This document shows positions 1 to 64,000 of a stretch of DNA of 64,000 bases, piece by piece. Every line of letters begins with the position of its first letter. Positions within the stretch are counted from its first letter, which is position 1. Under the pieces are notes generated by a model. That model was not told the origin of the DNA. It did no database searches and saw only the letters and a list, made by a program, of their open reading frames with translations. The position numbers and the translations under genes are program-made. The DNA is from Terramyces sp. JEL0728. Lineage: Eukaryota > Chytridiomycota > Chytridiomycetes > Rhizophydiales > Terramycetaceae. The DNA lies in contig JADIIU010000033.1 in the NCBI GenBank assembly GCA_027603945.1, positions 1 through 64,000 of the forward strand, in the 5' to 3' direction.

Positions 1-65
1 CCATGCGGACAAACTTTTAAGCACCATTGGTGGCCGAATTATTTGTGTTTGAAAATTTCCCATAA

Positions 66-422
66 ATGACCACTGAAAGAACATTCACACCAGAAGAATT
101 GGCGAAATACAATGGGCTGGACTTGAATGTCCCAGTTTACTTGGCAATCAAAGGAACCGGTACCCATCACTGATTATAGTATTCGATGTTTCTTCAGCTA
201 GAGCAGACCATTACAATGAAGGAAAGGGATATGCTGTATTCGCTGGAAAGGACGCTTCAAACGCATTGGGGAAATCATCAGTAAAGCCAGAAGATTGCTA
301 CGCTGATTACTCCAAATTGACAGAAGAAGAGGTAAGCTGAATTAACAAAGATAAAAGTATTGGATAAATGGCATGCGTTTTACTTGAAGAAATATCCAGT
401 TGTTGGAAAAGTTGTTCAATAA
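66..422 (+). CDS. DAP1: MAPR-family cytochrome b5-like heme/steroid-binding protein
   Basis: The spliced protein (about 105 residues) is one cytochrome b5-like MAPR domain, as in Dap1/PGRMC1: FTPEELAKYNG near the N-terminus, LAIKGTVFDV, then YAVFAGKDAS and a C-terminal DKWHAFYLKKYPVVGK. In the family such proteins bind heme and support P450/sterol enzymes; no N-terminal membrane anchor is seen here. Two introns are needed: 160-179 (20 nt), which removes an in-frame TGA and restores GT-VFDV, and 332-350 (19 nt), which restores EEE-IKVLDKW. The stop TAA at 420-422 lies inside AATAAA (418-423). The next gene ends convergently 40 bp downstream. Family call is firm; the DAP1 symbol is by family resemblance. 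Confidence 0.88.
160..179 (+). other. 20-nt intron in the MAPR gene
   Basis: GT...TATAG, containing CTGAT as a possible branch site. Without removal the frame hits TGA at once; with removal the conserved MAPR motif KGTVFDVSSAR is restored. It is one of the clearest examples of the ultrashort intron class that runs through the window. Confidence 0.9.
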
Positions 423-423
423 A
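418..423 (+). terminator. AATAAA polyadenylation signal containing the stop codon
   Basis: The MAPR gene ends CAA TAA ATA, so the TAA stop is part of AATAAA. A clear example of the recurrent stop/polyA overlap. Confidence 0.75.
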
Positions 424-461
424 TAGAATATTGTGATGATATTTCTTGGCTCAAGACTAAT

Positions 462-4045: not shown

Positions 4046-4085
4046 TTCTTGCTGGAAAAACTTTTTTTAATTTTTTCCGCTGAGA

Positions 4086-4538: not shown

Positions 4539-4546
4539 TAAATTTA

Positions 4547-4948: not shown

Positions 4949-6874
4949 CTAGTGACTGTTTTCAGCCAAATATTTATCTTGCAGCACAGCCAAATCCTGC
5001 AGAAAAACATTGTTGTTCATGGACATTTTGTATAACAACGGTTCTGGTATCATTTGCAAAAAATCTTGGATACATATAGAAGCAATGCGACACTTTCCTT
5101 TTGCTACTAGCCCTGTGTTGTGATAGTTATGCGAATCTTTAAATTCCATGGAGTTAAATAGGTCGTAATACCGCTCCTTTCTGAAATTTGATTCGTTTGA
5201 ATTTTCTCCAATTTTAGGAATATTTGGAAAAAACGTTCCTGGTTGCAACTCAAGGATATCTACGGTGACTACTATATAGTTTGGATTGCTCTTGTAGTCA
5301 AATCCACACGGCTCTAGTACTTTTAAATGTTCGTTTCGCAGAAAAGGCAACTCGCGAGTGACTGTGCATTCTCCTTTTACAATAAATAACAGCTCGGTAA
5401 TTTCGGCATGTTCAGCTACAATTTTAGTATTCGTAAAGTTGCGCGACTGAAAACTGTTACTATTTACCATCAGCTGTAATGCTTGCTCGTAACCTTTGAA
5501 CACTGTTTCGGATAGTGTTTTATAAATCAACTGTTTCTCTTCCTGTGCTTCCTCTGTTGGCAAATACTGCATTAACTCATGTTACTCTTAAAAAATCCTC
5601 TTTGATTAAATTCCAATTACCTTTTTCAATCTTGATCAGGAGAGACTTTTCAGTCGTTGCTGCACAATATAATCTTTTTGATACGTCGGAAAACAAGCAT
5701 TCGTTTCCAAATATGTCGCAGGAATTCAGCAGGTACAGCTACATTAACTGCAAGTACCCTAAATTTGTGGCTTTCGCTAATGCGAACTATTTCAACCTGT
5801 CCGGAAATGATAATGTAAATACAGGTGCCTACCCCACCTTCTTTCATTAAAATAGTTTTCTGCTTTAATTCAGTTTACCTTTGGAAAGGATTCTAGCGAC
5901 ATTATATTGCATAAATATAATCTTTGGTGCATTGGGTACTTTGCGAACCCGTCTACTTTTTGATACAGCAAATTCTGCAACACAATGAGATTCTCATGTC
6001 TTCGCTTGTATTGAGGCTCCACCAGAAACTGCTTCACTTGGTTACTTAGCATTTGATTTGATATTAGCGTGTGGATGTGGGCAATGGTCACCATTTCGCT
6101 ATCTACAGATGGCAATGCTGAAATTACGTCACTCAGTGATTTGGATATCTTTCTATAGAACTTTGACACTTTGCGCAATAGTTGATAATAATATAGTAAT
6201 TGCATCCACTTTCTTTTGGAAAATCTTGACAGCTCTTTGGCTTCGATGATCCGTGAAAGATTAGGTGTTACTTTAATACCTGCTGATTTTCCATTTTTTT
6301 GTACAATAGTAGGAAATTTAGTATTTACAGACTTTTCAGGCTTATCTAAGGATTGTCTTTTGTATTCCCATCCGCCTTGTGAACTGCTTGAGGGTTTGGA
6401 AATATCTACAGTCGCCGCGGCTATTGGATATTTTAGTAATGAATTTGCGCTCTTGGCTTGCTTCATATTTGGTAAATTTAATTTCGAATCAGAGAGAATC
6501 TCGCGCTCTGTTTTGGTCTGGTTACTCCGCTCGATTGTATCATTTGAAAGGTGTTTTGGTTTTTTGAAGGGTCGTGGTTTCGTTTTTGCAGAAGCAAGGT
6601 ACGATTGAGCAAATTGATCCATTTTATCCAGCTGTGCTTCAATATCAATGTTGCGTCTATTGGTAGGGCTGATTGTCAAAGATCCCATCGTACTCTTACT
6701 GCCCATGGCATCAGCGCTCTTTTTCGGGGATTCAGAATATATTGTATCTTGTGATCCGAAATCACCATCCTCAATCGTAATTTTAATTTTTGAGATATCG
6801 CGCAGCTTTCGTGGGGTTTTGGTTGGTTGAGTTTGGCCAGACTCTGGTAAATTGGATTTGACAAATGCTTTCAT
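4949..6874 (-). CDS. double cyclic-nuc­leotide-binding-domain protein, CNBD2-like (copy 2)
   Basis: Paralog of the gene at 462-3706. The start MKAFVKSNLPESG is an ATG at 6874. The disordered N-terminal region shares SQDT..SP with copy 1; then come a helical block (KRKWMQLLYYYQLLRKV), a linker (KQFLVEPQYKRRHENLIVLQ), CNB1 (KTILMKEGGVGTCIYIIISG, then CDIFGNECLF after a 19-nt intron) and CNB2 in the last exon (ITELLFIVKGECTVTRELPF). Three introns: about 19 nt (after SLESFPK; 16 or 19 nt both keep the frame), 19 nt (after SHKFR), and a longer one of about 60 nt before the last exon. Positions match copy 1. Neither CNB1 nor CNB2 shows a clear canonical phosphate-binding cassette, so ligand binding is uncertain. 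Confidence 0.8.
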
Positions 6875-10623: not shown

Positions 10624-10993
10624 ATGCAGGTTGACCCGTCAACACTTTCGGAACAAGACAGACAGTTCTATGAGAAATACGGAAGGTTACCCCCACAAAA
10701 AAAGCCATTAGGACAGCGCATAAAAGTAGCTATTATTAACATAGGTATAATTAATCTAATTGTAGGGTGGAGATCGTAAATACTTTGATTCCGGTGATTA
10801 TGCAATGTCAAAGGCAGGAAAGAGTGACCCAGAAAACGTCGGTAAAGTGAGAATTAATGTAGGTTCACAACATCCAAGTCCTGAGAGGATTCCTCATTCC
10901 ATCCCGCAGACAATGAAAAAAGGCGATATGACACACTCTCCTGTTAAAGAAAGCGGATTAACACATGAACAAGCAGTCAAAGAAGGTGTTTAA
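10624..10993 (+). CDS. IGO1: endosulfine/ARPP-19 family PP2A inhibitor (Igo1-like)
   Basis: Spliced protein of about 109 residues with the invariant endosulfine core: LSEQDRQFYEKYGRLP, then KYFDSGDYAMSKAG. The Ser in FDSGDY is the Greatwall/Rim15 phosphosite that converts the protein into a PP2A-B55 inhibitor controlling mitotic entry and quiescence. The core is only contiguous if 10726-10765 is removed; that 40-nt stretch looks like two abutting introns (see separate entry). The tail (MTHSPVKESGLTHEQA) is variable in the family. A TATATA element at about 10510 lies between this gene and the divergent GNAT gene. Confidence 0.92.
10726..10765 (+). other. two abutting ultrashort introns (19 + 21 nt), zero-length exon
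   Basis: 10726-10744 reads GTAGC...TTAACATAG and 10745-10765 reads GTATAA...CTAATTGTAG. Each half has its own GT, branch-like TAAC/TAAT and AG and is the standard size for this genome. Both must go to restore GQRIK-GGDRKYFDSGDY. It could be spliced as one 40-nt intron or in two steps. Confidence 0.8.
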
Positions 10994-11158: not shown

Positions 11159-12040
11159 ATGCTTCATAACCGGCTGCAGATAAGTTCTCCATTGGAATAC
11201 ACAGCGGCAATATCAATGTTGATATCGTACGGATACAGTATCTATTCATTAGGGGATATTTTTGTACATGGAAAGTTGAGTTCATTTGCTCACCAACTTT
11301 TGATTTTTCAAACCATCAATATCTGCATGCTGTTTGCAGAGTATTACAATAACTACTATTGTAGTGGATTTATCCCGGGGATTCTAGTTGCATTCCTGCA
11401 ACCAACTTTGATTTTTGGCATAGCAGTCACAAATATAAGGATCCTTAGGCTATACAAAAAAGTGAATACGCACATCACGGACAAACTGTTAAGAATTGGA
11501 TACTGGCTGTTTTCAATTTTATATGCGCTGCCAATAGTGTTCCTGCTAATCGCGTACAGCATAAATTCAAATTCCTCACTAAGAGCAAGCAGCCTCACAA
11601 TTCTAGCATTTTCAGTCCTCGTTGTAATATATAATACAGCTCAGGGAATTTACCTGATTTCATTCGTTTACAACAAGAATTCAACAAAGGAAAAAGCAAA
11701 ACTGCTTGTAGAATTCCGAAAAGCAAATTTTATAATAGTATTTTTAATAGTGTTGGATATAGCCGCAATAATAATCTTTGTTCTGGCACAATTCGCCCAT
11801 CTTGGCAGACCCACAAACTATTTGCTGATAGAGCTGGCTACCAGTCTGATAGGTATACACTACTCTACTCTGCAACTAATGTTTAAACAGATAAACGAAC
11901 TAAGTGCGCAATGCACGCCGAAACCGCCTGGTGCGCTCGCAAACTGGGTTGGCCAGTTGTGGAAAAAGAAAATCAAAGAAGAGGAGCAAGTAGATGACGA
12001 ATACTCACAATTTCAAAGTGTAGCTAATGGAGTTTTTTAA
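11159..12040 (+). CDS. seven-helix membrane protein, array member 1
   Basis: 293 residues from ATG 11159 (MLHNRLQISSPLEY), no intron. Seven hydrophobic segments at about 12-33, 42-62, 74-98, 112-134, 146-168, 190-214 and 222-243, then a cytosolic-type tail. Motifs shared with the next four genes: helix 5 VIYNTAQGIYLI, helix 6 ANFIIVFLIVLDI, helix 7 GIHYSTLQLMFKQIN. The tail carries KKKIKEEEQVDDEYSQFQS, shared with members 2 and 3. I recognise no known GPCR, transporter or Pth11 signature, although the topology is GPCR-like. First of a head-to-tail array. Confidence 0.85.
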   Translation: MLHNRLQISSPLEYTAAISMLISYGYSIYSLGDIFVHGKLSSFAHQLLIFQTINICMLFAEYYNNYYCSGFIPGILVAFLQPTLIFGIAVTNIRILRLYKKVNTHITDKLLRIGYWLFSILYALPIVFLLIAYSINSNSSLRASSLTILAFSVLVVIYNTAQGIYLISFVYNKNSTKEKAKLLVEFRKANFIIVFLIVLDIAAIIIFVLAQFAHLGRPTNYLLIELATSLIGIHYSTLQLMFKQINELSAQCTPKPPGALANWVGQLWKKKIKEEEQVDDEYSQFQSVANGVF

Positions 12041-12105
12041 TTATCACATAATAAAGCCTGATTTTCATTGTATGATACGTCATCCTCACTTTTACTTTTT
12101 TTCTC

Positions 12106-13011
12106 ATGCCAAATATACAATTGCTAACTAGTAGTGCGCTGGGATATATATGTTTGTTTATATTTGTATTCTCGTATTTCTTTAGTGTGTATATGATTAC
12201 AAGGATATGCACTGCAGAAAAAATGACAGCTCTTAGTATACAGCTTTTATTTTTTCAAATAATCAGCATCGCATTATTATTCTTTATCGCGCATAATTAC
12301 ATATACAATTACACCATACAGATGAGCTGCGTGGTGCAGATTTGCGAAGGGACCATGCTGCTGGCCGTTGCAATTGTGAATTTGTGGGTTCTTCGGTTTT
12401 ACGAATCAGGGAATCAACATAAATACGGTATTTACATTAAATTCGGAATAGGCTACTTGCTGGCTCTGTACTTTAGCAACGTAATCATTACAATAATTGT
12501 GACAATTGCTCCCATCGAAATCTTGAACAAGATCAACGTGATTGTGGTATTAGCACTGGCTGTTTCGGTTGTGATTTACAATATTTCTCAGGGAATTTAT
12601 TTGATTGTCAAAACATCGAGGACGAATACGAATGAGAAGATCCAGCAGACTTCGGCATATCTGAAAGCCAAAATATTGATACTGGTAATGATAGTATTGG
12701 ATATATCAGGGACATTATGTTACGCTATCTCGAGTTTTGCAATATTGGACCATGACACTACCGTAATACTGGATATGATACCAACAGGGCTGACCTGTAT
12801 TCATTTTTCAACCATACAAGTAATGTACAGACAAATCAATGATATTCAGGTTGCAAAAATGAATCAAAAAAGCGTAGAAATTGTCACTAGTAATACCTTG
12901 GCCAGATGGGTTGCGAATATCTTGAAAAGGAAAACAATCCAGGAAGAAGAAGAGTTTGACGACAATTATTCGCAGTTTCAAAGCCTCGCACCAGATACAA
13001 ATCTAAAATAA
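12106..13011 (+). CDS. seven-helix membrane protein, array member 2
   Basis: 301 residues, ATG at 12106 (MPNIQLLTSSALGY), no intron. Same seven-helix plan as member 1: helix 3 ends NLWVLRFYESGN, helix 5 VIYNISQGIYLIV, helix 6 AKILILVMIVLDIS, helix 7 CIHFSTIQVMYRQIND. The tail RKTIQEEEEFDDNYSQFQS is nearly the same as in members 1 and 3. The stop is in AAATAAA. Only 65 bp from the end of member 1. Confidence 0.85.
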   Translation: MPNIQLLTSSALGYICLFIFVFSYFFSVYMITRICTAEKMTALSIQLLFFQIISIALLFFIAHNYIYNYTIQMSCVVQICEGTMLLAVAIVNLWVLRFYESGNQHKYGIYIKFGIGYLLALYFSNVIITIIVTIAPIEILNKINVIVVLALAVSVVIYNISQGIYLIVKTSRTNTNEKIQQTSAYLKAKILILVMIVLDISGTLCYAISSFAILDHDTTVILDMIPTGLTCIHFSTIQVMYRQINDIQVAKMNQKSVEIVTSNTLARWVANILKRKTIQEEEEFDDNYSQFQSLAPDTNLK

Positions 13012-13223
13012 ATCCATAATACTTTTTAGCTTGCTATTGGCTCTTATCTTTGGTATCTCGGCTATACTAACGCGGAAAAAACGGGATAGTTCCTTTGCAG
13101 CTCCACAAGTATAAATCAGGATTAAAATAATACTATTGATTCGATTTTGCAGCTCGCTTTCAAGACTCATTGTTTGGCAATGATTTTGACGTCATTGCAC
13201 TTTATAAAACTTTATCGATTGCC

Positions 13224-14105
13224 ATGCTTCATAACAAGATCCAGATACATACCCTATTGGATTACCTTGCCGTAATATCAATCCTAATTTCATTTTTTAT
13301 CAGCGTGCTATCTATTGGGGCAATCAACACGGCAGCCAAACGACCGATATTCACCAATCAATTAATTTTCTTTCAAATCATCAATATCAGTATGCTATTT
13401 TATACATTCTATCATTATTATTTTTTCACTTCAAATGCAGTTGGGAGAACAGTGGATATGCTGGTAAACACGTTAATATTTGGTGTAGCTGTTACGAACC
13501 TGCGAATTTTGAAAATATATCAAAAAGTAAATCAGGATATTACAGATAAGAAGGTGCAAGCGATTGGAATATTTTTTACTATACTTTATGTGATTGCCAT
13601 GATTCCGTCGGTTATCCAGCTTGTTTTGAACGGCACGCTGATATCTAATATCCAAATTTTCGCAGTGATTGTATTCTCTCTATTTGTAATTATATATAAC
13701 ACCGCACAAGGTATCTATCTTATCTGGCTGGTTTATAGTTCAGTTGGCACAATTAATGATAGCCGCACAGCTTTCAGAAGAGCCAATTTCTTGATAGTAT
13801 CAATGATAGTAATGGATATTATTGCCTTGATCTTGTATATCATTCAAAATTTCGTGACTGTTAGCCTAACAGATTTCAGCGTCCTCGGTATTCTCGCAAC
13901 GTCAATAATCGGAATACACTATTCCACTATACAGTTGATGTTCAAAGTTCTTAATCAGGTTGGGAGCAAGTCGAGTGATTTACAAAGAAAGTCTACGAGA
14001 GCATCAGAACTAATTGGGCAGCTCTGGCAGAAAAAGATTACAGAAGAAGAAGAATTTGACGACGGGTATTCGCAATTCCAAAGCATTGGCGGTGGTGTTT
14101 TGTGA
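13224..14105 (+). CDS. seven-helix membrane protein, array member 3
   Basis: 293 residues from ATG 13224 (MLHNKIQIHTLLDY), chosen because TATAAA lies 21 bp upstream and because members 1 and 3 then begin alike (MLHN). Helix 5 IIYNTAQGIYLIWL, helix 6 ANFLIVSMIVMDII, helix 7 GIHYSTIQLMFKVLNQ, tail KKITEEEEFDDGYSQFQS. It is the closest relative of member 1. Confidence 0.85.
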   Translation: MLHNKIQIHTLLDYLAVISILISFFISVLSIGAINTAAKRPIFTNQLIFFQIINISMLFYTFYHYYFFTSNAVGRTVDMLVNTLIFGVAVTNLRILKIYQKVNQDITDKKVQAIGIFFTILYVIAMIPSVIQLVLNGTLISNIQIFAVIVFSLFVIIYNTAQGIYLIWLVYSSVGTINDSRTAFRRANFLIVSMIVMDIIALILYIIQNFVTVSLTDFSVLGILATSIIGIHYSTIQLMFKVLNQVGSKSSDLQRKSTRASELIGQLWQKKITEEEEFDDGYSQFQSIGGGVL

Positions 14106-14162
14106 CCATTGTTTAATAATAAACACGTAATTGAAACCGCTGGTTAGTAACTAATTTTCACA

Positions 14163-14990
14163 ATGACCACATCAGTAATGAATTTAAATCAGCCGCTATA
14201 TATTCTATCAGCATCCCTATTGGCTTTATCATTTGTTATCAGCATTGTAATGCTAGTTCTATTGTATTCAGCCGATTCAAAAAAGACATTCACCATTCCA
14301 TTCACTATCTTTCAGATACTAAATTTAATTCAATGCATAAATGTTACATATAGCCATTATTACAGGTACAGCATAATCATGGAAAGGCTGCAGGATTTCT
14401 TTGTGTGTTTAATGGTGCTTGGGATCTTTACGATTACTTTGATGATATTGCAGATATACGAAAATCTAAATTCTGCAAGGGCACAATTTATCCTCAAAGT
14501 ATTTAAACGCATCGGCCAAACTTATTGTCTGATAGCATCAATTTTTTCACTCCTATATGCCATTAGCCCACATCTATTTCCGCAGCTGCGGATTCTGAAA
14601 CTTGCTCTGGTTACGGTTTGGTTTATTAGCGTAGTTCTATACGACAATTGCCAATCAGTCTATCTAATTTTCAAGGTATTTGCCAGAAATTTTATGCATA
14701 AAAGAAGGGAGGTGGTGAACGAGTTTAGAAGGGCATCTTCCTTTCTCTTTATTATAATCATTATTGACTGGATAGGGATAATCCTGGGAATTTTACAGTC
14801 CAGCCAAACTCTGCAAAACACGATGCTGTTTTCAGAAATTGGAATTGCGTGCACCGGACTTCATTTATCTCTCATGCAAATAATGATAAAGGAACTCTAT
14901 CTGCTTTTGTTGGTTGGAAATATGCAGGTTTCATGCGGCTTTGTAGTGTCTTGCACTTCGCTCGATGACATATCTGGAACCGCTACATAA
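14163..14990 (+). CDS. seven-helix membrane protein, array member 4
   Basis: 275 residues from ATG 14163. Same fold and motifs but diverged: helix 5 VLYDNCQSVYLIF, helix 6 ASSFLFIIIIIDWIG, helix 7 GLHLSLMQIMIKELY. It lacks the acidic SQFQS tail, ending instead with a short Cys/Ser-containing segment. With member 5 it forms the YDN-Q-S / IDWIG branch. The stop is in TAATAAA. Confidence 0.82.
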   Translation: MTTSVMNLNQPLYILSASLLALSFVISIVMLVLLYSADSKKTFTIPFTIFQILNLIQCINVTYSHYYRYSIIMERLQDFFVCLMVLGIFTITLMILQIYENLNSARAQFILKVFKRIGQTYCLIASIFSLLYAISPHLFPQLRILKLALVTVWFISVVLYDNCQSVYLIFKVFARNFMHKRREVVNEFRRASSFLFIIIIIDWIGIILGILQSSQTLQNTMLFSEIGIACTGLHLSLMQIMIKELYLLLLVGNMQVSCGFVVSCTSLDDISGTAT

Positions 14991-15136
14991 TAAATACCAG
15001 TTGGATTTCCCTATTTCTCAATGTTGCACGCGATATAGCCAGATGGAGCAGCAGGAGAGATGCCTTTTTATTAAATATTTATTATCCATTGATAAGGCAT
15101 TGTGAAATCACCATTGTTACCTTTTATCTAGCCAAC

Positions 15137-15955
15137 ATGCCAAATACACAGTTGGGATGGAGCTCTCCCTTGGAAATGTTGGCTTTTCTGGTAATAGCAG
15201 GTTCATTTGCACTGAGCGTTGGAATGATTGCAAATATATTCGTAAATCCAAAGAAACAGATCTTTACATGGCAGCTAACAGTGTTTCAAATGTTGAATCT
15301 TATACAATGCCTCAATATGTTTTATTGTAATTACTATAGGTTCAGTGTTACCCTGAATAAGATTGTGGATGCGCTGGCTGTAACTATGCTGCTGGGGATC
15401 CTGGTAACTGGATTGCGTATATTGAAAATTTACAAGTACATCAATCCAAATATATCAGACCACTGGACCAGAGCCGCGAACACTGCCACGCTAATACTCT
15501 ACGTTATAGTGATTGTGCCGTGTTTAGCCAATGTTGCCATGACTCCATATTTACCCCAGCCTTACAAAATGATTAAAGCGTATATAATGATGGTGTGGAC
15601 AGTCATAGTAGTGGTGTACGATAATGTCCAATCAATGTATCTATTGAATTTGGCATATGGGAGGAACCGATTCAATGCAAAGGAGCGCGTAATTTTGGAA
15701 TTTCGGAAAGCTACAGCAGTAATACTATTTATAATGGCAATCGACTGGATCGGTGTAGTCTTTGAAGGAATTCTAATTATGGAGTCGGACGGTTTCAAAC
15801 AAATGGTTTATGCGCAAATTGCGGTAGGTCTTTCAGGCATCCACTACTGCGGAATGCAAATGATGATGAAGCAGTTGTGTGTGCTGACATTCTCTGGCCT
15901 CACTCCGCCCAAAGTTCAAGAATCCACCTTCAAAGCAACAGAACTCAGTTTATAG
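15137..15955 (+). CDS. seven-helix membrane protein, array member 5
   Basis: 272 residues from ATG 15137 (MPNTQLGWSSPLEM); the MPN start is shared with member 2. Helix 5 VVYDNVQSMYLLN, helix 6 ATAVILFIMAIDWIG, helix 7 GIHYCGMQMMMKQL. Short tail without the acidic motif. TAG is followed at once by AATAAA. Confidence 0.82.
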   Translation: MPNTQLGWSSPLEMLAFLVIAGSFALSVGMIANIFVNPKKQIFTWQLTVFQMLNLIQCLNMFYCNYYRFSVTLNKIVDALAVTMLLGILVTGLRILKIYKYINPNISDHWTRAANTATLILYVIVIVPCLANVAMTPYLPQPYKMIKAYIMMVWTVIVVVYDNVQSMYLLNLAYGRNRFNAKERVILEFRKATAVILFIMAIDWIGVVFEGILIMESDGFKQMVYAQIAVGLSGIHYCGMQMMMKQLCVLTFSGLTPPKVQESTFKATELSL

Positions 15956-16003
15956 AATAAAAAAGACTGACGTCAGCATTTTAAACTTTGCTATCTTTCA
16001 ATA

Positions 16004-17274
16004 ATGGATACAGGCCCGGATATCTTGCTGTATGTAGAATATATTGCAATCGGAATTTCAATATTATTGTGTTTGGTCGTTGGATCAAAGCAGTTTTTTG
16101 GAGGCGACGGCATAAAAGCCCAATCAAAGGATATCGCTTATCTTTTCGTATCGCTACTGCTTTTAGTATTGAAGATCTGTATCATATCGATATCTTTAAA
16201 AAGTCCGATACTGCAAATTTTGATGTTTATTTTGCACTGGACTGTATTGCTGGGAATCTTTGTTTTGAATTCGGTTATATTAGAAATATTCAACAAGTTT
16301 GATAAAACCATCAGTATCGAGAAAATCAGGGCATCCCGATTGGTATTATACATCTTTTACGTGCTGGGGATGCTTCCTGCCATAGTAGACGTGTATTTCA
16401 TAGTAGCCTCACTGTCGCGGACTTGGATACATAATGTGATATTTGCTTATATTAGTACTTGTTTTACTCTCGCTTAATTTGGGAATTGGGAATTAATATC
16501 TTGGAAACTATTCAGTATGTTGCTGTTTACTATCGAAGCACTAAAACCTCGGCAATGGAATACACTGTATTGCAAAAGGAATTGCCAGGGCGGATCTGGA
16601 TTTTTATATTGGCATTTGTGCTCTCTTGGTGTAGCTTTATTCTGCTTGTTTTTTCAAATCAGCAACTATCCGATTGCGCAATGGCTTTCAATTGTTTGCG
16701 AGTATCGTTGCTTGTTGTTATCAAGAAATTAATCCAAAGAATATCTCGAAAGCTACTTAAGCCAAAAAAGATGTCTGGAATATATTCCCACCAGTCATAC
16801 CTGCCAAAGTCAGCGAGTTCCGGATACGAACCGTCAAGATCATTTAATGATGGCACTCAATCTTATAAATCGTATCAGGAAAGTTCAAAGTCATACAAGG
16901 AACCAGGGTGTTTATCTAGGGAAGATCAAGTGAGGAGATCAAATACCAAGGAAGAAAATAGATCAAATAAATCCGTACTTGCTAAATTAGAAGAGCTGAT
17001 TCAAGAAGAAGAACGAAAAGCCAATATTAATCAAGGTGAAACCCGAAGGCACTCAAATATTAAACAGCGTGACCAATCTTTCCCAAGATTAGAGGAAATA
17101 AAACGAGCGCATACATATACCGATAGACGGAAAAGTTTAAAGGAAGATGCAGTCGGAAAGCAGTTTTCTCCAGAGGAATATAGAATGACACCATCAAAGA
17201 GCTCCAAGATGCTGACTGAAATCGACGCAAGGAGGAAATCAGCACAGTATTCCAAGCCGGATTTTCAGTTGTGA
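16004..17274 (+). CDS. seven-helix membrane protein, array member 6 (second subfamily, long tail)
   Basis: About 416 residues. Seven hydrophobic segments, then a long Ser/Lys-rich tail. A 20-nt intron at 16436-16455 removes a frame change and joins SRTWIHN to YLFYSRLIWELG. After it comes ETIQYVAVYYR, the counterpart of the Q-containing helix 5 motif in members 1-5, with VLNSVILEIFNKFD in helix 3. The tail starts MSGIYSHQSYLPKSA, shared with member 7, and is likely cytosolic and phosphorylated (many Ser/Thr-Lys contexts). Clearly related to member 7, more distantly to members 1-5. Confidence 0.82.
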
Positions 17275-47956: not shown

Positions 47957-50367
47957 TTAAATACCACCACCACTGCGATCTGCTGGGAACTGGGTTCTGT
48001 CCTGGTATTCAGCAACAATCCTGGCAAATTTAGACCTTGAGCGGATATCCTTGACGGCTGCCAGAACTTCCAAAAATTCGTTAAATTCTACAGATCCAGA
48101 CTTGTTGAGATCCACTTCAGAAATCATATTATATAAATCGTTAGAGTTCATTTTGACTCCTAGTGTAGATAAGGCTCTTCCAAAATCTTTTTGCGAAATT
48201 GATCCATCCTTGTCGTAATCCAAAGAATTGAAAATTTCCCTATATTTCGCTATTTCATGAGGCATAAAGTGTGTTCTTGCAAAGAATCTAGCGTGGTCCT
48301 CGGTGATTTGAATTGCCGGCTTCTTTCCATCGGCAGGAAACTCAGTAGTGTCCTTGATTGACAGACCCATTGATAACAAAAACTTTTGGGCATCTGCCAA
48401 CTCCTTCTTTTTTCTCGCACCATCCCAATGAAGTTCAGACGCCATAATTTCGATGATACGGGGAATCGCTTCCTGCGCAGCCTTTGCATTCAAGAAACTT
48501 AATCTAGTTCTCCTTGCGATAACGTCTTCCACCGTACAAGCATATTCACGCTGACAGGCATATCGAACCTCAGCTTCAATGTATGGATATCCCATTGCTA
48601 GCCTGGTACCATATATTGGCCATCTGGACCCAGTTTGTGACGCTAAAGCGGCAACTGCCCACGCTCTATCTCCATAGTTTTCTGCCAGATGTTGAGCAAC
48701 CTAAATTAATATACAGCCACCTCTGTTTCCAATCCAAAGTGTTGAATCAGCTTAATAAACATATTTGGAGACCAGTGATGGCTTCCAATCAATTTGGTGT
48801 CGGTAGTAACGCAAGGTCCAGTGGGGGTTAAATCTAAATCAAGACCCGATTACCAAAAACTTCGATTGCCTTATCAATAGTTTCTTCAGCCATTGCACGA
48901 TAAGTTGTCCACTTTCCACCAGCCATTGTTACCAGGCCGGAAGGTGATACGTTGAGCATATGATTTCTGACCAAAGACTCTGTATTTTTAGCAGCTGGAT
49001 CGCGAACAAGAGGTCGGATTCCGGACCATGCAGCTTGAACATCTCCACGACGCAGCTTGATATCTTGTTAATTAATCAATTACCAGGTGATAAATAATTT
49101 CCGACCTCCTTCAAAATCCAGTTGACATCTGCGTCTCCTGGTACAGGGTTTTGTTCAACGGTGGTGGGAGAATCAGTAGTTCCTGCGATTACCGAGCCTT
49201 GCCAAGGTAAAAAGAAGATAACACGGCCGTCGCTGGTGTTTGGATCAATCAATCCCATGTTCCTTGGCGAAAAATATGAAGGCAAGACAACATGAACCCC
49301 AGCAGATGGCGCAACAATCTCCTTTGTTTCAATTCCAGTATCCAATTTTCTGATTCCATCGCAAAATGGGCCGGTTGCATTAATCACACCCTTTGTTTTG
49401 ACTGTCCATGTTTCTCCAGTAAGGGTGTCACGGACTGTAGCTGCACAAATCTCTTCATCGCCAAATCCTTTTTGACCTTTGAGAGTTACTCGAGGTTTTT
49501 TGTGCAACTGAACCACTTCAACATGATTGGCGATCGTTGCACCGTGTTGCGCAGCTGTTAACGCAATAGCGACATTCATTCTAGAATCATTATGAGCTCC
49601 TTTACATTAAATCTATTGTACCATCGTAATAAATAATTGCCCCCTTGATTTTATCCTTTTGTAACATTGGAAACGCTTCCAATGCCCTTGTTTTCGTCAA
49701 GAAATAAGAATGGGTAAGCCCTTTGCTTCCAGCAAGTAAATCATATACCTTTGCCCCAACCCAATAGTATGGAATTTTCCACCAGATCGTCAAAGGCAGC
49801 ATAATTGGCAATTCGTGAGCAAGGTATGGCGCGATATGCATAAAAGAGCCTGCGTTAATTGGGAAATACCTCTTTCATGTAGAGCTTCTCTTACAAGCTT
49901 GTATTGTTCATAATCCAGCTCCAAAAATGCCTTTTCAAGGTATCTGACACCACCATGAATCAATTTTGTGCTTCGTGAAGAAGTTCCTGAATAAATAAAA
50001 ATCTACCTGATGCAAAATCGTCTCTTTCCACCAAAGCGGTTTTCAATCCTCTAGTTGCTGCATCCAAAGCGCAGCCAGCACCTGTAGCTCCCCCACCAAT
50101 AATCAAAAGATCAAACTCTTGTTCTTCATCGTTTAATTTTTTCCCGTCTGCTGAAATCCCTTTAAGCTTTTGAAGCATCTCTAGACGGCTTGGAGGCAGC
50201 CAAGTTGTACTTTCAACCGTTTTAGCCAACGCTTCTGCAGAAAGTCGTGATGTTGCAAGTGCAGACGTAATTTCCTTGCTGTTATTATCTTTGAAATATA
50301 AATATGAGGTTACACCGACCAATCCCGTCGCTGCTGCAATTTTTTTCGACGCTAGAGCACGCAGCAT
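47957..50367 (-). CDS. GUT2: mitochondrial FAD glycerol-3-phosphate dehydrogenase with EF-hands
   Basis: About 755 residues. Mitochondrial N-terminus MLRALASKKIAAATGLVGVT, FAD motif FDLLIIGGGATGAGCALDAA, GTSSRSTKLIHGGVRYLEK, INATGPFCDGIRKLD, MAGGKWTTYRAMAEETIDKA, and a C-terminal domain ending in two EF-hand loops (DYDKDGSISQKD and DLNKSGSVEFNE). Six introns of 20-22 nt are needed and restore the family sequence throughout. It oxidises G3P at the outer face of the inner membrane, passing electrons to ubiquinone. The EF-hands give Ca2+ control as in animal GPD2 and are absent from yeast Gut2. Start ATG 50367. Confidence 0.93.
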
Positions 50368-55763: not shown

Positions 55764-58700
55764 TTACAGCATACCGGCTTTTTGAAGCATCTCAATCTTT
55801 GCTTCTAGTTCACGATTAACCTCTTCAGGACCTCCACTTCCAGCACTGGCTCTTTCATCTCTAGGCTCAAGACGAAGCGAGAGCTCATATAAATCTTGGA
55901 CATCTCTTGTTCCTCTATCCTGAATAGATTGCTGTAGGTAATCTTGAATTTCAGGAACTTCGGTGATTGGGTAGGGAACTTGGTATCTCGTTAAATCTGA
56001 TATAATTTTAGATATACGAGAATATTTGTCGAAATTGATCAGTTTGCCATTATTGCGCATGTCAGGGTTACCATCTTCTGTGAAAGTCAAATCGGTCAAG
56101 AACAGCCCAAGGAATGGAAGAGTGGGTAGCGCAGACCGTTTCAAGGCTTGCCTATAATCTGCATAGTTCCTCGAGTGATCCGTAGCTTTCTTCAATACTT
56201 CAAATGCCCCGCGAGTCTTGGAAGACAATAGCTATCGTTAAGAAGGGCTTACTTCCCAAGTTTTCTTTAGTCTACTGATAGTAGAGGAATTGAATGCCGA
56301 CTGTATGGCTAACAAGGTATTAAAGTTGTTCATTATCAAACAGCGCTAAGTTAAAAAGGACATACCTCGGCTACTTTAATAAAGAATTTCAGGATGAAAG
56401 CTCTTCTTTTCAAATCAGCTTCCTGAAGAATAGTGCAAATTACCCATCCGGTAATTTTGGTTGCCATGGCAGTCATACCACGAACATTAATGGCCAAAGA
56501 GGGTCCGTTTTTTCTCGACCATTCTTGCTTCATCAGTTCCACAGGTTGAATCTTCATGAAAATATTTGCTTCGAGTATAGTTAACTGTCTTGCAACTTCG
56601 AGCGGATCTAAATCAGTGAGGGTGAATCGCTTCAAATTCTTTGGGAGAATTGGAGCTTGGTAATCTTGTGGATTTGCTCTTTTTAATTTTGGAGTGACAG
56701 CAGCAGTCCCATATACATCGGTAGTAACCTTTTTAGAAACCAATTCTAAAATTTTTGTAGCTGCTTGCGGTTGATATTCCATCATTGCTCCAGAGGCAAA
56801 AGCATGAATGTCGTCCAAACAGCTGTCATCGCTACTTTCCAACCAGTATTGCTCAATCCACATTTTCAGCGCATTACACACACCTCTCTGAACAGGTGTC
56901 AGCTTCTTTTCAACCCAAATATTTAGCTCTTCTGGAGTCAAGCCTTGTGGAGGGTCGAGGAGAAATCTGCTCTGCAAGCAGCGGAACAGCGTTTCTGAAT
57001 TGCCAAACAAATGGAAAGTCATCAAAAATGCCTGAGCAAAGCCAGGGTCTAAATTAACTATCAAATCACCAACTGGCTGATCGTGAACTGTTAAACGTTC
57101 TACTAATGCTGGGAATGTACCACCATTAACTGCTCCTTCCATATTGTAAGATAAGTCATAGGTAGTTTCTTTTCGCAAGAACCACGGTCTCATATTCTAC
57201 ATTAAAAATAATTACTTCAGATACACGAGCAGATTGGCTGACAGGCTCTTCACCAAAGAACTGCGACAATTTGGAAGCACTCCCCATATCTTGAGGAGAA
57301 TTCATTGCTTCTTGTGAGACCCTTCTGCCGCTTTGTATGCCTGTGATGGATCCTTTTCTATAGGATGCATATTGCTCTTGCGTAGGAGCACCGCTATTCA
57401 ATCGAGACTCTGCGGATAGCGTCCTGCCATCTCTGCTCCAATTTCCACCGGGCGATACTGAGCTTGGAGGATATTGGCCCGATGTAATCGAGTGAGCACT
57501 GCTTTGGCTATTTCTGTTATCCAAAAAGTTCAAAGCTTGAGCACGCTTCTGCAGAACCAGTAAATCAGAATCTTCGGCCTTTTCGTTTTCACTTTGAAGC
57601 GATTTTTGGAGGATCAATTCTTTGTGATCGATTAGCAACTTTGCTGCAACCACAATGTCTTCAACAGATTCGAGAACTGAAGTTGCACTTTCCAACATCA
57701 ACCCCAAGGCATTTGCAGGTGCAAACCCATCCTCTCCGGTGCTTGATGCACTTACCAAGTCGTTCAATACGGTGTACAGATTGCCCTTCTTTTGCATAAA
57801 ATCAGCAACCAAATTGTCAACGTCCAACGAAGTATCAAACCGTATATCTTCAATAATTGAAAGCAGTTGTCCAATTTCGGTTACCGTCTTTCTAACCATG
57901 TCGATTAATCCAGTAGACAGTGCCCTGTCCCTAGTGATTTTTGTAACTAGAGTTGCTATTGAATTCATAATGATTTCGCAATTTTGATCTAGCCGCGTTA
58001 CCATTTCGGTGTCTGAAAGCTCATTCCCTTTAACGTCAAACTCATCAGCTGCGTCTTCGGGTAATGTGCCAAGAGTGATACCCAAATCCTGAGCAACAGC
58101 TACAAAATGTCTGACAGCCAATAATACTTGTCCGGCTTGATATCTCATACTGTGCACTGCATCTGGAGGAGGCCATAAACCAGCCGCAACTTTTGCCGCC
58201 AAAATAATCTTTGACAATGAAGCCATGATGTTCTGATGATATTGCGCCAACGCCCTATTTGATTGAATAATAACCGACTCGGACGAAATGGTTCCTGAGC
58301 AGCCAAGCATATCTCTTATTGCCCTTACGATTTGTCCTGATTGCTGTACATAATTCGATTTAATATCATTCTTTGCTGAATAATTCAAATCAGAAATGGA
58401 TTTTAAAATATTGTTGATTAAAATTTCCCAGTTGATTTCTGCTACATCAGTAAGTAAAGATTTTGGTCCAGGTACCCAGGAAGCTGATTGCGGTGCGGAA
58501 GGTAGTGGTTTTCCTTCGTGATTAGCAACTACACCATTCTGCTTCCAAATTAAACTGACTCTCTTTTTTACAGATGTCTACGATTAAATCTGTCCGCAAA
58601 TTTTAATGCTGAAACTACTTACCGCCATTACTTGCTCCAGATTGTACGTGGTTTGATTAGTTTGCGTGTTGTAGTAATATACTTGTCCTGACGGCGTCTC

Positions 58701-59109
58701 TTTCTTTCGCCAGAATTGAGGTAGCTGTTCTGGTGCTTTGTTGTCCCTGTCAAGAGTGGTATTCGCTGGGGATACTGGCGGTGTTTCTTCCAATTCTTTA
58801 GTTACATCCTCTATATTTGCACTGGGTGATTCGGTCTAGGTAAGATATATTAATACTGTCTCAATAGCCGCAATCCAATTCGATGGAAACCATCCTGTAT
58901 GTAAATTAATCATTCATACCTAATAATTAATTTTAATTACCTCTTTCATTCCCAACTGTTCCGCTCCACCATCCAGAGGAATCTTTTGAATGCACGTAAA
59001 TTATATCACCGGCTTTTAGATTTAAAACACTGGCTTCTGTCGCTGTATAGTCGTGTAAACTGCGTACGACTTCAATGTACTCCAAGTCTGTTCGTCGTGG
59101 AGGCTGCAT
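55764..59109 (-). CDS. Cdc25-like Ras guanine-nucleotide exchange factor (SH3-WW-RasGEFN-RasGEF), copy A
   Basis: About 985 residues. SH3: LHDYTATEASVLNLKAGDII, SSGWWSGTVGNERGW. WW-like: LPQFWRKKETPSGQVYYYN, QTTYNLEQV, with Tyr in place of the second Trp. A central helical region follows, then RasGEFN (GGTFPALVERLTVHDQP, QAFLMTFHLFG) and the catalytic RasGEF/Cdc25 domain (LDPLEVARQLTILEANIFMK, IQPVELMKQEW, LPFLGLFLTDLTFTEDGNPD, LINFDKYSRISKII). It activates Ras. Introns: a 46-nt double unit in the SH3 region, then 21, 45, 19, 20 and 21 nt. Start is ATG 59109. Tandem with copy B. Confidence 0.9.
58895..58940 (-). other. two abutting ultrashort introns (21 + 25 nt) in RasGEF copy A
   Basis: On the minus strand 58940-58920 reads GTAATT...TTATTAG and 58919-58895 reads GTATGAATG...CATACAG. 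Both are removed to join VGNERG to WFPSNW. The paralog has one 22-nt intron (62375-62396) at the same codon and phase, so one unit was gained or lost after duplication. Confidence 0.8.
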
Positions 59110-59371: not shown

Positions 59372-62300
59372 CTATAACATACCTGCTTGGAGAAGCATTT
59401 CGATTTTGTGTTCCAGGATAAGTTCTGGATTATCAGTGTTGGTTGGAGTGCGAGGCTCCAAACGAAGAGAGATGTCATATAATTCCTGAGGGTCTCTGTT
59501 CCCATGCTCGTACATTACCTGTCGCAAAAAGTCTTGTATTTCTGCAACTTCGGTGATAGCATACGGAACCTGGTAGTTTGTCAACTCTTTGATAATTCTG
59601 GCGGTTTTCGCATACTTGTCGAAATTAATCAATCTTCCATTGTTTCTGGTATTAGCGTTGCCATCATCAGTGAATGTCAGGTCAGTGAGGAAAAGACCCA
59701 AGAATGGGATGGCGGGTAAAGTTGCACGTTTCAACAATTGCCTGTATTCAGCATAGTTTCTGTTTATGTCGGTCGCTTGATTGATAGAGTGGAACAGGAC
59801 CATCGTTTTTTCAGATAAAATGGACCAGGTTCTATTCAATCTGCTGACAGTTGATGACGAAAACGCACTCTGGACCGCAAAGAGGGCATGGAAGTTGTTC
59901 AAAGCTAGTAATTTCTATACTTAATAATAAACTTACACAAGCAACTTTGACGAAAAACTTTAGAATAGCTGCACGATTCTTGACATTTTCTTCTTGCACA
60001 ATGCAGCTGATTATCCAGCCAGTGATTTTGTTGGACACGTCCGACATTGCTCTTACATTTACAGCGATGTTCGAGTACTTTTTTGCAAATTCTTGATTCA
60101 TCAGCTCTACAGGTTGAATCTTGATGAAAATACTGGAATAGAGGATGGTCAGTTGTCTGGCAACTTCTAACGGATCCAAATCTAATACTGAAAATCTCTT
60201 TAGATTCTTTGGCAATATTGGCGGTTGATATTCTTCAGGTTTGATAATCTTTTTGGTTTTAGAAGACATAAATGGTGTTCCATAAACATCGCTATTAATC
60301 TAACAATTAAAATGTATTACCATGGTGGTGACTAAGCCGAGGATTTGAGTAGCGAGCACCGGCTGGCTTTCCATTATCTTTCCAGCAGCAAAATCATGAA
60401 CATCGTCCAAGCAAGCTTCGTCAAACCGATTAATCCAATAGCTCTCAATCCAAGTTTTCAGCGTGTTACAAACTCTTTGTTGGATGGGATTCAGCTTCTT
60501 GTCGGTCCATATTTTGAATTCTTCAGAAGTGATGCCTTGAGGCGGTTCGAGATTAAATCTATCTTTAAGGCATTGAAGCAGTTGTTGGCCTGTTCCAAAA
60601 CAGTGGAACGTCATCAAAAAGGAATTCAAAAAGATTGGATCTACAATTAGGTTAATTCTACCAATTGGCTGATCATGGACGGTAAGTCTTTCAACCAAAG
60701 CAAGGAATGTCCCTCCATTCACAGCACCTTCTTTGTTAAAGGACAAGTCGTAATTTACTTCATTCTTCAAAATCCAAGGACGAATGCTCTAATTGTTAAT
60801 TAGGGTTACATTGGTGTCATAAGAAGAGTTATTGTCCGTTGAGTTGCGACTGGTATTGAAGGAGCCGCCAGAGTATCTGACACTGCCTTTTCTTTCAGTT
60901 TCACCAGAAGTAGTTCTTTCTCTACTCCATGGAGATGGCGAGCTTGGCTTCGACGACTGAGAGGTTGCGCTAGCTGCACCTTGTCCGTATTCCAAAAAGC
61001 TTAGTTCCTGTGCACGCTTTTGCAACAGCAGCAAATCAGAGTTTTCATTTTCTTCGTGTAATTTCTTTTCAAAGTGGTGGCTGGATTGATCAATCAATAC
61101 TTTGGACAAAGTGACAAACTCTTCTACTGCCTTTAGTAATGCAGTAGAATTATCCAATATTGAGTTTACGGCATTTGCTGGGGCAAACCCGTCTTCACCG
61201 GTATGGGCTGCGGAAACAAGTGCATTGAGTGTAGTGTAAAGCACTTGCTTCTTTTGGCTATATTCTTCGCTCGAGCTGCCTTCATTGGCATCTTCAAAAT
61301 CAATCTCTTCCATGAATGACAGCAATTGTCCAACTTCTGCAACAGTCTTTTTTACCAAATCAATCATGTGTGTGGATAGTGCCTTATCTCTCGTAATTTT
61401 AGTAATCAGGTTGGCAACAGAATTCATCACCACCTCGTTGGTTTGCTCTACATTGGATAGCAATTCAGCTTGCGATAAATCATTCCCTTTAATATCAAAT
61501 TCTTCGACTGGAACATTAGGGGCAGATTCTAAGAGCAAGTTCAAATCTTGAGCAGTAGATACAAAGTTTCTGACTGACAATAAAACTTGTCCAGCATGGT
61601 GCCTTAAAGCTCTAACTGCGTCTGGTGGCGGCCAAATCCCAGATGCAACTTTGGCAGCCAAAATCATCCGTGACATTGAAGCCATGATGCTCTTGTGGTA
61701 AGTAGCAAGCGCTCTATTTTGCTTGATGGTTGGAGAATCTACAGATACAGTCCCAGAGCAGGACAACATGTCACGTACAGCTGTGATGATTTGCGCGGAC
61801 TGTGAAGTATAATTTTGCTTGATCCCGTTTTTAGCAGAAAAGTTTAAATCGGAAATTGATTGCAAGATGTTGTTGATCAAAACTTCCCAGCTAACACTTG
61901 CCCCCTTCTCTAATAGGGTTTGCGGTCCGGCAATCCACTGAGTGCTCTTTGGTGTTGGCAAAGCCTTGATATCTTGATTTGCCACAACCTCATTATCTTT
62001 CCATATTAAGCTTGCACGCTTCTTTAATGGCTAAAAAATAAGCACTGCCAAATAAAATGTAAAATAAATAAAAGGAGATTCAAAGACTGCAAATCACTTA
62101 CCGCATTGACTTCATTGAGGTTGTATGTAGTCTGGTTGGTGTTGGTATTGTAGTAATAAGTTTGTCCAGAAGCTGTTCTCTTCTTTCTCCAGAATTCAGG
62201 AAGCTAATTTAGGCCAATATTTACTTCTTTGACAGTATCCTTGTCTTCGTCTGCTTCCTTGTCATCATCCGCAATTAATTCTTCCAGTTGTTTGCTGACC

Positions 62301-62565
62301 TCTTCCATTTCCGGCTAAATATTAACAAATTATCACCATTTCAACGCCTTTAATCCATGTGGAAGGGAACCAGCCTACAGTTATATATCTGCTTACCAGA
62401 CGTATTATCTACTGTCCCATTCCACCATCCTGAATTATCTTTGGAATGGACATAAATCAAGTCTCCTTGTTTCAGGGCCAACATCCCATCTTCGGTTGGG
62501 ACATAGTCGTACAGCACCTCCACTATTTCAATGTATTCGATATCTGTTCGATGTTTTGCAGGCAT
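59372..62565 (-). CDS. Cdc25-like Ras guanine-nucleotide exchange factor (SH3-WW-RasGEFN-RasGEF), copy B
   Basis: About 960 residues from ATG 62565 (MPAKHRTDIEYIEIVEVLYD). SH3 (GDLIYVHSKDNSGWWNGTV, GWFPSTWI), acidic linker, WW-like LPEFWRKKRTASGQTYYYN with TTYNLNEV (second Trp again Tyr), RasGEFN (GGTFLALVERLTVHDQP) and RasGEF (LDPLEVARQLTILYSSIFIK, PFLGLFLTDLTFTDDGN, LINFDKYAKTARII). Introns 22, 22, 21, 72, 21, 21 and 22 nt. It ends AGML like copy A. Catalytic domain complete. Tandem with copy A, about 260 bp between them. Confidence 0.9.
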
Positions 62566-62884
62566 CGCTCGTAAAAAGCAAGAATGTTGTACGGGTCTTC
62601 TGAAAAGGGAAGGCGCCACGTACGACTGATGATTGATGTTCGAATACAGACGAGATGATTGAACTTTGTTTCATGTACTTGATCAATTCAGCGGGGAGGC
62701 TGTTTTTACTCGATGACTTTCCTTGCATTTCCATCTCAAATTTTTGCTGAATGCCATTGTCAAACACCAGGAGTTTCAACCCCCATCCATTCGGCAAAAC
62801 AAATAGACGAAAATCGGGATTCCAAGAGCACGAAAAATGGAAAAGAAATTACAAGTGAGAGCAAAAATTGTTTAATATCCAACA
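62566..62884. other. intergenic/promoter region of RasGEF copy B
   Basis: 319 bp on the upstream side of copy B and downstream of the PP2C gene. A long minus-strand frame here has no upstream ATG and runs into the SH3 exon out of frame, so I treat it as chance. Confidence 0.5.
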
Positions 62885-63947
62885 TTAATTGACACCTTCG
62901 ACAGGAATATTAGTTACCGGAGCAGTTTCGCGATAACGGTTTACTACCTTTGCTGCCCATTCTTCTTCAGTTTGTCCAGCCAATATAGCGCAAATAATAA
63001 CCGTCATATTATCGCATCCTATACCAGCCATTGGATCTGTTGCCAAGCAATTATCTGACATGGCTTCGCAGATTTCTCCCAGACCCATTCCAAGCGAGAG
63101 TTTTTGCCCAACAAAATCAATCACTTGCTGAGAAGTCATACAATCCCAAATACCTAAATAAAGCTGAACGTACCATCACATGCAATAACAAAGAATTCGT
63201 CGCCTTCGTGGTGCACTCTTTCCAATATATCTGGGTTGCAGGTTACTGCTTGCTCCTCTGGAGATTTATCTGGATTTGCTTTAAACTCAAAATCTCCGAT
63301 CGCTCTGGAAAGAGCAAGATTGCCTTGATCAAAAACCAAATACCGTTAACTCTCCCGAATTCGACAAATCCACCAGCTGCAACTATACGACTGTATTCGC
63401 CTTCATTAAACAAAAGTACCTTGATTGGACGGTTTGTGATCAAATGAAAGCGGAACTGCAATTCCTGAATTTGATAGTACAGCTCTGGAATCTCCAGCAT
63501 TTGCGCAATAAATGGTATGGTCATCTGTTATAAGTGTAGCGACAGCTGTACAACCGGAAGGCTCACGCTCATGAGTTGGGTCTGCGGGTAAATAATAACG
63601 TACCAGCTCTTAGTTCTACATCAGTATCTAGAAATCCTTGTTTCAACGCTTCTTGATATTTTCCTTCCTTGAACTGTAGTGTTTTTACAATATTTAAATG
63701 CAAATTCTTTCCGCTGAACTTGGCGGCATGTGAACCACCATGACCATCGAAAACAGCAAAGAAAGATATATGTTTGTTGTCTTGTTCAAGATCTGTGAGG
63801 GTGGTATGGGCGTCTTCCATGGCTATTTGTTAAAATAAGAGTACTGATTCTCCAGCCCTGCATTTCGCTGGCGGCCCAGCTAATCCTTTTATCCTTCCCG
63901 CTTGTCGTGTGCTTTTCTACAACTGGTTCTGATAATGTTTGACCCAT
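62885..63947 (-). CDS. PTC2: PP2C-family Ser/Thr phosphatase (Ptc2/3-like)
   Basis: About 320 residues after five introns of 22, 22, 19, 20 and 20 nt. Starts [14 protein letters not shown] (Gly2 is a likely myristoylation site), then [33 protein letters not shown], the metal-binding [44 protein letters not shown] and [14 protein letters not shown] (final metal Asp DN). All key metal ligands are present, so it should be an active Mg/Mn phosphatase. The Ptc2/3 group counters stress MAPK and checkpoint signalling. The window ends 53 bp upstream. Confidence 0.94.
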
Positions 63948-64000
63948 ATTTGCCGATAGTTTGATTGCAGACTTTTTCTTTAAAGAAAATTGGTGGCTAG

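Follow-up and report, generated by a model that had tools for sequence, protein, structure and literature searches.

Probable spliceosomal introns of 19–22 nt in the nuclear genome of the chytrid fungus Terramyces sp. JEL0728

A 64,000-nt stretch of the Terramyces sp. JEL0728 genome (hereafter the window; positions 1–64,000 of contig JADIIU010000033.1, C33, which is 126,636 bases long in an assembly of 15,016,339 bases and 231 contigs) is interrupted throughout by segments of about 20 nt with GT-AG boundaries, and these are almost certainly U2-type spliceosomal introns, apparently shrunk close to the physical minimum in a chytrid nuclear genome. An initial annotation of the window had described about 80 introns, roughly 90% of them 19–22 nt long, in the genes of a “fungus-like opisthokont.” The organism is in fact a true fungus (Terramycetaceae, Rhizophydiales, Chytridiomycota, kingdom Fungi), and window proteins match Terramyces sp. 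JEL0728; an aphelid origin was rejected on the protein matches. The intron count held up well: an independent gene finder called 101, of which 90 were 19–22 nt (22, 35, 22, and 11 of 19, 20, 21, and 22 nt, respectively), including all six cited as examples (20, 19, 19, 19, 20, and 22 nt, all GT-AG when read in the sense direction). The best reading of these data remains that ordinary conserved genes carry ultrashort spliceosomal introns, given conserved reading frames and agreement among orthologues, Pfam matches, paralogues, and haplotypes.

Introns were counted in 264 kb of sequence, made up of the window and one 10-kb piece from each of 20 other contigs. A semi-Markov gene finder was run first with codon usage and GT/AG boundaries only, without a motif model and with a flat length prior of 15–100 nt, and then again after training on its own calls. 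Because training strengthens the length peak, the first pass is the fair test of lengths. It called 313 introns, 176 of them 19–22 nt, and each of ten decoy boundary pairs handled identically to GT-AG gave 13–26 introns of that length. The trained model called 476 introns (∼1.8 per kb), with 103, 186, 104, and 41 of 19, 20, 21, and 22 nt (434 together), seven below 19 nt, 15 of 23–25 nt, and 20 above 25 nt; ten called single introns measured 34–59 nt, among them 58578–58622. A narrow length class of at most about 25 nt, typical of ultrashort-intron populations, thus recurs across 21 contigs, and 19–22-nt introns formed the majority of calls in every one of the 20 other pieces. Of the 171 sampled genes whose coding sequence reached 300 bases, 130 had an intron and 128 had one of 19–22 nt (29 of 42 in the window). 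A homology-free motif count in the window also peaked at 19–20 nt, with 19 and 17 occurrences against expectations of 3.6 and 3.5. When 253 kb of intron-free sequence was simulated twice, the trained model made 22 and 24 false calls, equivalent to ∼5% of 476, and re-decoding of the spliced sequence yielded two. The initial annotation had cautioned that stop-free introns divisible by three would escape its method. Such 21-nt introns do exist, but the limit is a weak one here: there is no shortage of introns of 21 nt, and an in-frame stop is absent from 29 of 89. One caveat is that 21 nt is also the most frequent length among false calls (10 of 22 and 7 of 24 in the simulations). There was no sign of selection for in-frame stops in 381 introns of 19–22 nt: 230 contained one vs. 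243.3 expected from the three-frame mean.

The introns share the consensus AAG/GTAATT...YTAAY...TAG/ (slashes mark boundaries). Donor position +5 is T in 45% but G in just 21%, and T precedes the terminal AG in 61%. The branch A lies at a nearly fixed position, 14–16 nt from the donor in 413 of 453 introns of 17–25 nt, and 4–7 nt from the intron end in 436 of 475. The first AG past the branch A was used in 395 of 413 introns (≤30 nt, scored branch); among the 18 AGs passed over, 15 were 2–3 nt from the branch A and three were at 4–6 nt. A+T content was 0.70 in introns vs. 0.60 in flanking exons. As in U2-type introns, GT-AG boundaries lie inside conserved reading frames and the YTAAY branch is complementary to GUAGUA of the genome's own U2 RNA. 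Allowing GC, GA, or GG donors in the 264 kb gave only 4, 2, and 3 calls, with GC no commoner than controls; one probable exception is a 20-nt GC-AG intron in the Prp18 gene (L032, near position 1790), across which two Pfam pieces, 3–99 and 98–142, meet.

Homology supports these boundaries at the protein level. Eighteen window proteins, picked for likely conservation, were scanned against Pfam; 15 had a family match, and 34 of the 64 introns in scanned proteins, including all five of a PP2C gene, fell within a single unbroken domain match. In the glycerol-3-phosphate dehydrogenase gene (47957–50367), all six introns (20, 20, 22, 20, 20, and 20 nt) have junctions that are gap-free against nine or ten of ten orthologues from chytrids, an aphelid, and other fungi, a partial Kappamyces protein being the exception at three junctions. 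The GenBank model of this gene from JEL0728 agrees at five of the six introns and departs at the 22-nt one. Paralogues provide a further comparison (Table 1). Two RasGEF genes, W61 and W63, with 58% identical proteins, have five intron positions and phases in common, a sixth pair (45 and 71 nt) one alignment column apart, and two unshared introns each. Two cNMP-binding genes, W02 and W05 (36%), have four introns in common, with two unshared in W02 and one in W05. Introns at these shared positions differ in their letters and often in length.

The fatty acid desaturase (21383–22571) differs from the Terramyces sp. JEL0728 protein only by a gap of 26 residues and a single residue beside it; the residues missing from the GenBank protein lie directly before the acceptor of the 19-nt intron, and they fit a 98-nt intron with the same acceptor when the window sequence is read by hand. 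Seven of nine desaturase relatives chosen for shortness (P0012–P0020) stop 0–6 residues past the exon 1 boundary, as would be expected if intron-less gene calling ran into an intron; P0013 and P0016 do not stop near it. At the W61 57049–57069 site, proteins of the sister genus Boothiomyces, P0243 (Boothiomyces sp. JEL0866) and P0245 (B. macroporosus), carry exactly seven extra residues, GKHPLTI and GKSSFII, that are absent from Globomyces and Gorgonomyces proteins. By manual back-translation, either set of residues is consistent with a stop-free 21-nt intron starting GTAAR and ending ATAG, so both GenBank proteins seem to translate such an intron, an apparent instance of the very case that the initial annotation's method would miss. 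Further stretches are absent from Boothiomyces models (e.g., P0243 after W61 residue 163), and overall, at some of the tiny introns, the Terramyces and Boothiomyces models P0002, P0121, P0243, and P0245 diverge from the conserved protein.

Two versions of one stretch are kept in the assembly as separate contigs, C199 (1–10756) and C111, aligned over 10.8 kb at 98.5% identity, and the strain may therefore be diploid or heterozygous. In this single haplotype pair, counted over genes with at least 300 coding bases, a MAFFT alignment placed none of its nine indels in exons (7,380 bases), two in introns (308 bases), and seven in the remaining 3,068 bases; the 17 gaps of a BLAST alignment were likewise distributed as none, two, and 15. 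Both intron indels are single bases (21 vs. 20 nt) that leave donor, branch, and acceptor intact, and retention of these stretches would put the haplotypes in different frames downstream. Of 69 coding changes, 54 were at third positions, and 52 changed codons were synonymous and 17 not. Ten of the 15 introns were identical and five differed.

Several components of a U2-type spliceosome are encoded. We found an intact U2 RNA (140.2 bits, GUAGUA present), a U2AF-like protein, U2A′ (on L021, contig C12), Cwc25 (in the window), and Prp18, Slu7, and LUC7, the last three above curated cut-offs (spliced Slu7, 289.2 bits). The U2AF-like, Prp18, and Slu7 genes themselves contain predicted introns of 19–21 nt, four of them, of 19–20 nt, in the U2AF-like gene. 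Two losses were considered and rejected: that of the second-step factors Prp18 and Slu7, suggested by the short branch-to-end distance, as both are encoded, and that of U2AF, as a U2AF-like gene is present. In the mechanism we propose, U2 RNA would pair with the branch site, the branch A would attack the donor 14–16 nt upstream to form a lariat loop of that size, and the 3′ site would then fall at the first AG located over ∼3 nt downstream of the branch A. With no space for a polypyrimidine tract, the 3′ site is probably set by its distance from the branch, though a U2AF-like protein is still encoded.

Some observations weigh against spliceosomal removal or against individual calls. We infer removal from the transcript from sequence; a ∼5% share of false intron calls is expected; three of the 18 Pfam-scanned proteins had no family match, and 30 of their 64 introns lay outside any match. 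The gene finder was sometimes wrong, its Prp18 and BUD31-like models ending incorrectly, and two long introns called in W06 look doubtful. Read without splicing, the U2AF large-subunit match scored 251.7 bits vs. a cut-off of 310.3, and the spliced U2AF-like protein has two RRM stretches. U6 RNA was not found in the genome with a covariance model, two patterns, and a DNA search, nor were U1 RNA and the U1-70K N-terminal domain; Rfam at gathering cut-offs gave no match in the window or in 14 of the 20 sampled pieces. One weak U6 hit (27 bits) was rejected because it coincides, in either haplotype, with exons and an intron of a predicted coding gene; it also lacks the AGC triad, a U6 motif. Since U6 must exist if splicing does, we take these misses of U1 and U6 to reflect limits of the search or the assembly, and loss of U1 is not established, given that LUC7 is present and that the same kind of search also misses U6. 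The U6 gene is possibly split, divergent, or missing.

Two other explanations for the interrupted frames were weighed. That U1 and U6 RNA were not found would be compatible with a bypass at the level of translation or RNA, in which the ribosome skips each stretch or a non-spliceosomal ribozyme or endonuclease cuts it out. We consider this very improbable: GT, a U2-complementary branch at a near-fixed distance, and AG are the signals of a spliceosome, U2 RNA and several splicing factors are encoded, and a group I or II ribozyme could not fit in a stretch of ∼20 nt. Frames broken by errors of sequencing or of assembly, the latter named by the initial annotation as a possible refutation, are less credible still and contradicted by the data. 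The assembly does contain at least one haplotype contig pair, which could confuse assemblers, but errors would have no reason to cluster at 19–22 nt with GT, branch, and AG; the two haplotypes agree in exon structure without an exon indel, and two Boothiomyces proteins, from other genomes, each bear an intron trace at the same place.

Seven pairs among the 476 introns (7 of 469 sites, ∼1.5%) abut directly, the exon between them having zero length. No neighboring introns are separated by 1–8 nt, and the next internal exons in size measure 9 nt or more. Two such doubles lie in the single U2A′ gene, whose 159-residue spliced piece aligns gap-free across both with U2A′ of PDB 1a9n (164.8 bits). 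Both neighbors have complete boundaries and neither is nested in a splice signal of the other, which sets them apart from the stwintrons of filamentous fungi, in which two spliceosomal introns at one site, one splitting the donor of the other, are removed stepwise (PMC7385547, excerpt). There is perhaps an even chance that minimal introns can abut in this way with each half spliced alone, the AG/GT junction being a landing site for new introns, with gain caught in the act, and the ∼20-nt units perhaps being removed one after the other. The pairs might instead be single 38–46-nt introns of the minor long class in which the inner AG/GT is coincidental, a reading we hold as a real possibility though short of an even chance. 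Single introns of such lengths are called here, and homology demonstrates only removal of the whole pair. Against it, six of seven pairs have two halves that each exceed the 10th percentile (0.7) of scores for ordinary 19–22-nt introns, the exception being the 25-nt half of the W61 double (58895–58919, −4.1); read in one piece, all seven score negatively, in part because the length model was trained mostly on 19–22-nt introns; and the first half carries a branch site of its own and an AG that would be chosen under the first-AG rule. At the position of the W61 pair, W63 has one 22-nt intron. The 17-nt half of the L027 double is possibly a GC-AG intron of 21 nt.

Ultrashort introns have been described before, those of 19–22 nt being among the shortest known, and the initial annotation rightly named Stentor and Bigelowiella, but these are not the only lineages: Mikrocytos mackini, Paramecium, and Nyctotherus belong here too. 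Chlorarachniophyte nucleomorphs, one such setting, are relict endosymbiont nuclei. The following comparisons draw on excerpts of the papers cited. Introns of 18–21 nt (PMC10245619), which we take to be those of chlorarachniophyte nucleomorphs, the name lying outside the excerpt, and of 18 nt in Bigelowiella natans (PMC12316389) cover nearly the same length range as those described here, which lie in the main genome of a fungus. The 15–16-nt introns of the ciliate Stentor coeruleus are likewise GT-AG and A+T-rich, with the branch at a nearly constant position and a tail of 5 nt, but the lariat is 10–11 nt vs. 14–16 nt here, introns occur in 18% of genes vs. 19–22-nt introns in 128 of 171 sampled genes, and all major small nuclear RNAs were found there, whereas U1 and U6 were not found here (PMC9505925). 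The reduced intracellular symbiont M. mackini has 224 introns of 16–17 nt in 179 genes, also a narrow class at the short extreme with conserved signals (PMC10245619); the density in our 264 kb is that given above. Introns of Paramecium and Nyctotherus are ∼25 nt (PMC5014332), and a 56-nt model intron in human cells relies on SPF45, not U2AF (PMC8363638). No paper on introns of such length in a chytrid or other fungus was among the literature matches listed, which comprised titles and abstract starts with most subscription journals outside coverage; novelty within fungi is thus likely, although not proven. Scaled from 264 kb to 15.0 Mb, the 476 calls correspond to the order of 27,000 introns, mostly ∼20 nt, which would make this gene-rich chytrid a fungal model for exploring the lower size limit of introns that a spliceosome can excise. 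The data raise the questions of why U2AF, Prp18, and Slu7 persist at branch-to-end distances of 4–7 nt and how intron length drops so low outside ciliates and reduced parasites, and they mean that public gene models of this family (Terramyces, Boothiomyces) are wrong at some tiny introns.

Table 1. Introns of the window, with the evidence at each site.
Position	Strand	Intron	Evidence
160–179	+	20 nt, cytochrome b5-like gene	Within single Pfam Cyt-b5 match; called by gene finder
332–350	+	19 nt, cytochrome b5-like gene	Within Cyt-b5 match; called by gene finder
1134–1153	−	20 nt, cNMP-binding-like W02	Position and phase of 19-nt 5567–5585 in paralogue W05
1168–1187	−	20 nt, W02	Common to 21-nt 5600–5620 of W05
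1306–1327	−	22 nt, W02	Common to 19-nt 5739–5757 of W05
1430–1448	−	19 nt, W02	Common to 19-nt 5860–5878 of W05
5567–5585	−	19 nt, cNMP-binding W05	Within cNMP_binding match
5600–5620	−	21 nt, W05	Within cNMP_binding match
5739–5757	−	19 nt, W05	Within cNMP_binding match
5860–5878	−	19 nt, W05	Within cNMP_binding match
10726–10744	+	19 nt, first half of double, endosulfine gene	Within Endosulfine match; zero-length exon before 10745
10745–10765	+	21 nt, second half of endosulfine double	Within Endosulfine match; abuts 10744
10842–10862	+	21 nt, endosulfine gene	Within Endosulfine match
18952–18971	−	20 nt, glycosyltransferase	Within Glyco_trans_1_4 match
19600–19619	−	20 nt, glycosyltransferase	Within Glyco_transf_4 match
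22135–22153	+	19 nt, fatty acid desaturase	No gap at junction vs. 8 other proteins; called by gene finder
23328–23347	+	20 nt, CWC25 splicing factor	Within CWC25 match
24978–24997	−	20 nt	Within mit_SMPDase match, 45.6 bits
25066–25086	−	21 nt	Within mit_SMPDase match, 45.6 bits
26510–26528	−	19 nt, glutaredoxin gene	Called by gene finder; junction outside Pfam match
32347–32365	−	19 nt, NIF-type phosphatase	Within NIF match
32471–32490	−	20 nt, NIF-type phosphatase	Within NIF match
37467–37488	−	22 nt, DUF3419/methyltransferase protein	Within DUF3419 match
40567–40585	−	19 nt, EMC3-like gene	Within EMC3_TMCO1 match
40669–40688	−	20 nt, EMC3-like gene	Within EMC3_TMCO1 match
47239–47258	+	20 nt, TMEM14-like gene	Within Tmemb_14 match; called by gene finder
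47353–47374	+	22 nt, TMEM14-like gene	Within Tmemb_14 match
48701–48720	−	20 nt, mitochondrial glycerol-3-phosphate dehydrogenase	Gap-free vs. 10 orthologues; also spliced in JEL0728 GenBank model
48834–48853	−	20 nt, same gene	Gap-free vs. 9/10 orthologues; partial Kappamyces protein differs
49064–49083	−	20 nt, same gene	Gap-free vs. 9/10 orthologues; insertion in Kappamyces
49600–49621	−	22 nt, same gene	Gap-free vs. 10 orthologues; JEL0728 GenBank protein differs
49850–49869	−	20 nt, same gene	Gap-free vs. 10 orthologues
49987–50006	−	20 nt, same gene	Gap-free vs. 9/10 orthologues; Kappamyces protein starts there
56232–56252	−	21 nt, RasGEF W61	Within RasGEF match; gap-free vs. P0243, P0242, P0244, not P0245
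56346–56365	−	20 nt, W61	Within RasGEF match; common to 59915–59936 of W63
57049–57069	−	21 nt, W61	Common to 60641–60661 of W63; 7 extra residues in two Boothiomyces proteins
57197–57215	−	19 nt, W61	Common to 60789–60809 of W63
58578–58622	−	45 nt (long class), W61	One alignment column off 71-nt intron of W63, beside gap
58836–58856	−	21 nt, W61	Common to 62315–62336 of W63
58895–58919	−	25 nt, second half of W61 double	Zero-length exon; low score (−4.1); one 22-nt intron in W63
58920–58940	−	21 nt, first half of W61 double	Gap-free junction vs. 4 chytrid proteins
59915–59936	−	22 nt, RasGEF W63	Within RasGEF match; gap-free vs. 4 chytrid proteins
60300–60320	−	21 nt, W63	Gap-free vs. 4 chytrid proteins
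60641–60661	−	21 nt, W63	Within RasGEF_N match; gap-free vs. 4 chytrid proteins
60789–60809	−	21 nt, W63	Common to W61; variable sequence upstream
62031–62101	−	71 nt (long class), W63	Gap-free vs. Boothiomyces P0241; small gaps nearby in other three chytrid proteins
62204–62224	−	21 nt, W63	Junction without gap; variable sequence upstream
62315–62336	−	22 nt, W63	Common to W61; orthologues variable in region
62375–62396	−	22 nt, W63	Within SH3_1 match; gap-free vs. 4 chytrid proteins; called by gene finder
63154–63173	−	20 nt, PP2C gene	Within single PP2C match, 268.7 bits
63324–63343	−	20 nt, PP2C gene	Within single PP2C match
63401–63419	−	19 nt, PP2C gene	Within single PP2C match
63582–63603	−	22 nt, PP2C gene	Within single PP2C match
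63823–63844	−	22 nt, PP2C gene	Within single PP2C match

Other features of the window include a tandem cluster of multi-pass membrane proteins, judged by eye, with few introns (11216–18506), and two tandem intron-free genes (45301–47139) that we take to be aquaporin-like from their presumed NPA motifs. A methyltransferase plus DUF3419 protein is encoded at 36964–39534 and presumably resembles betaine lipid synthase. Elsewhere, two neighboring predicted genes (L041, C199:11199–13286 and 14058–16517) both have intron lengths of 19, 20, 55, and 44 nt and are probably a tandem duplication.

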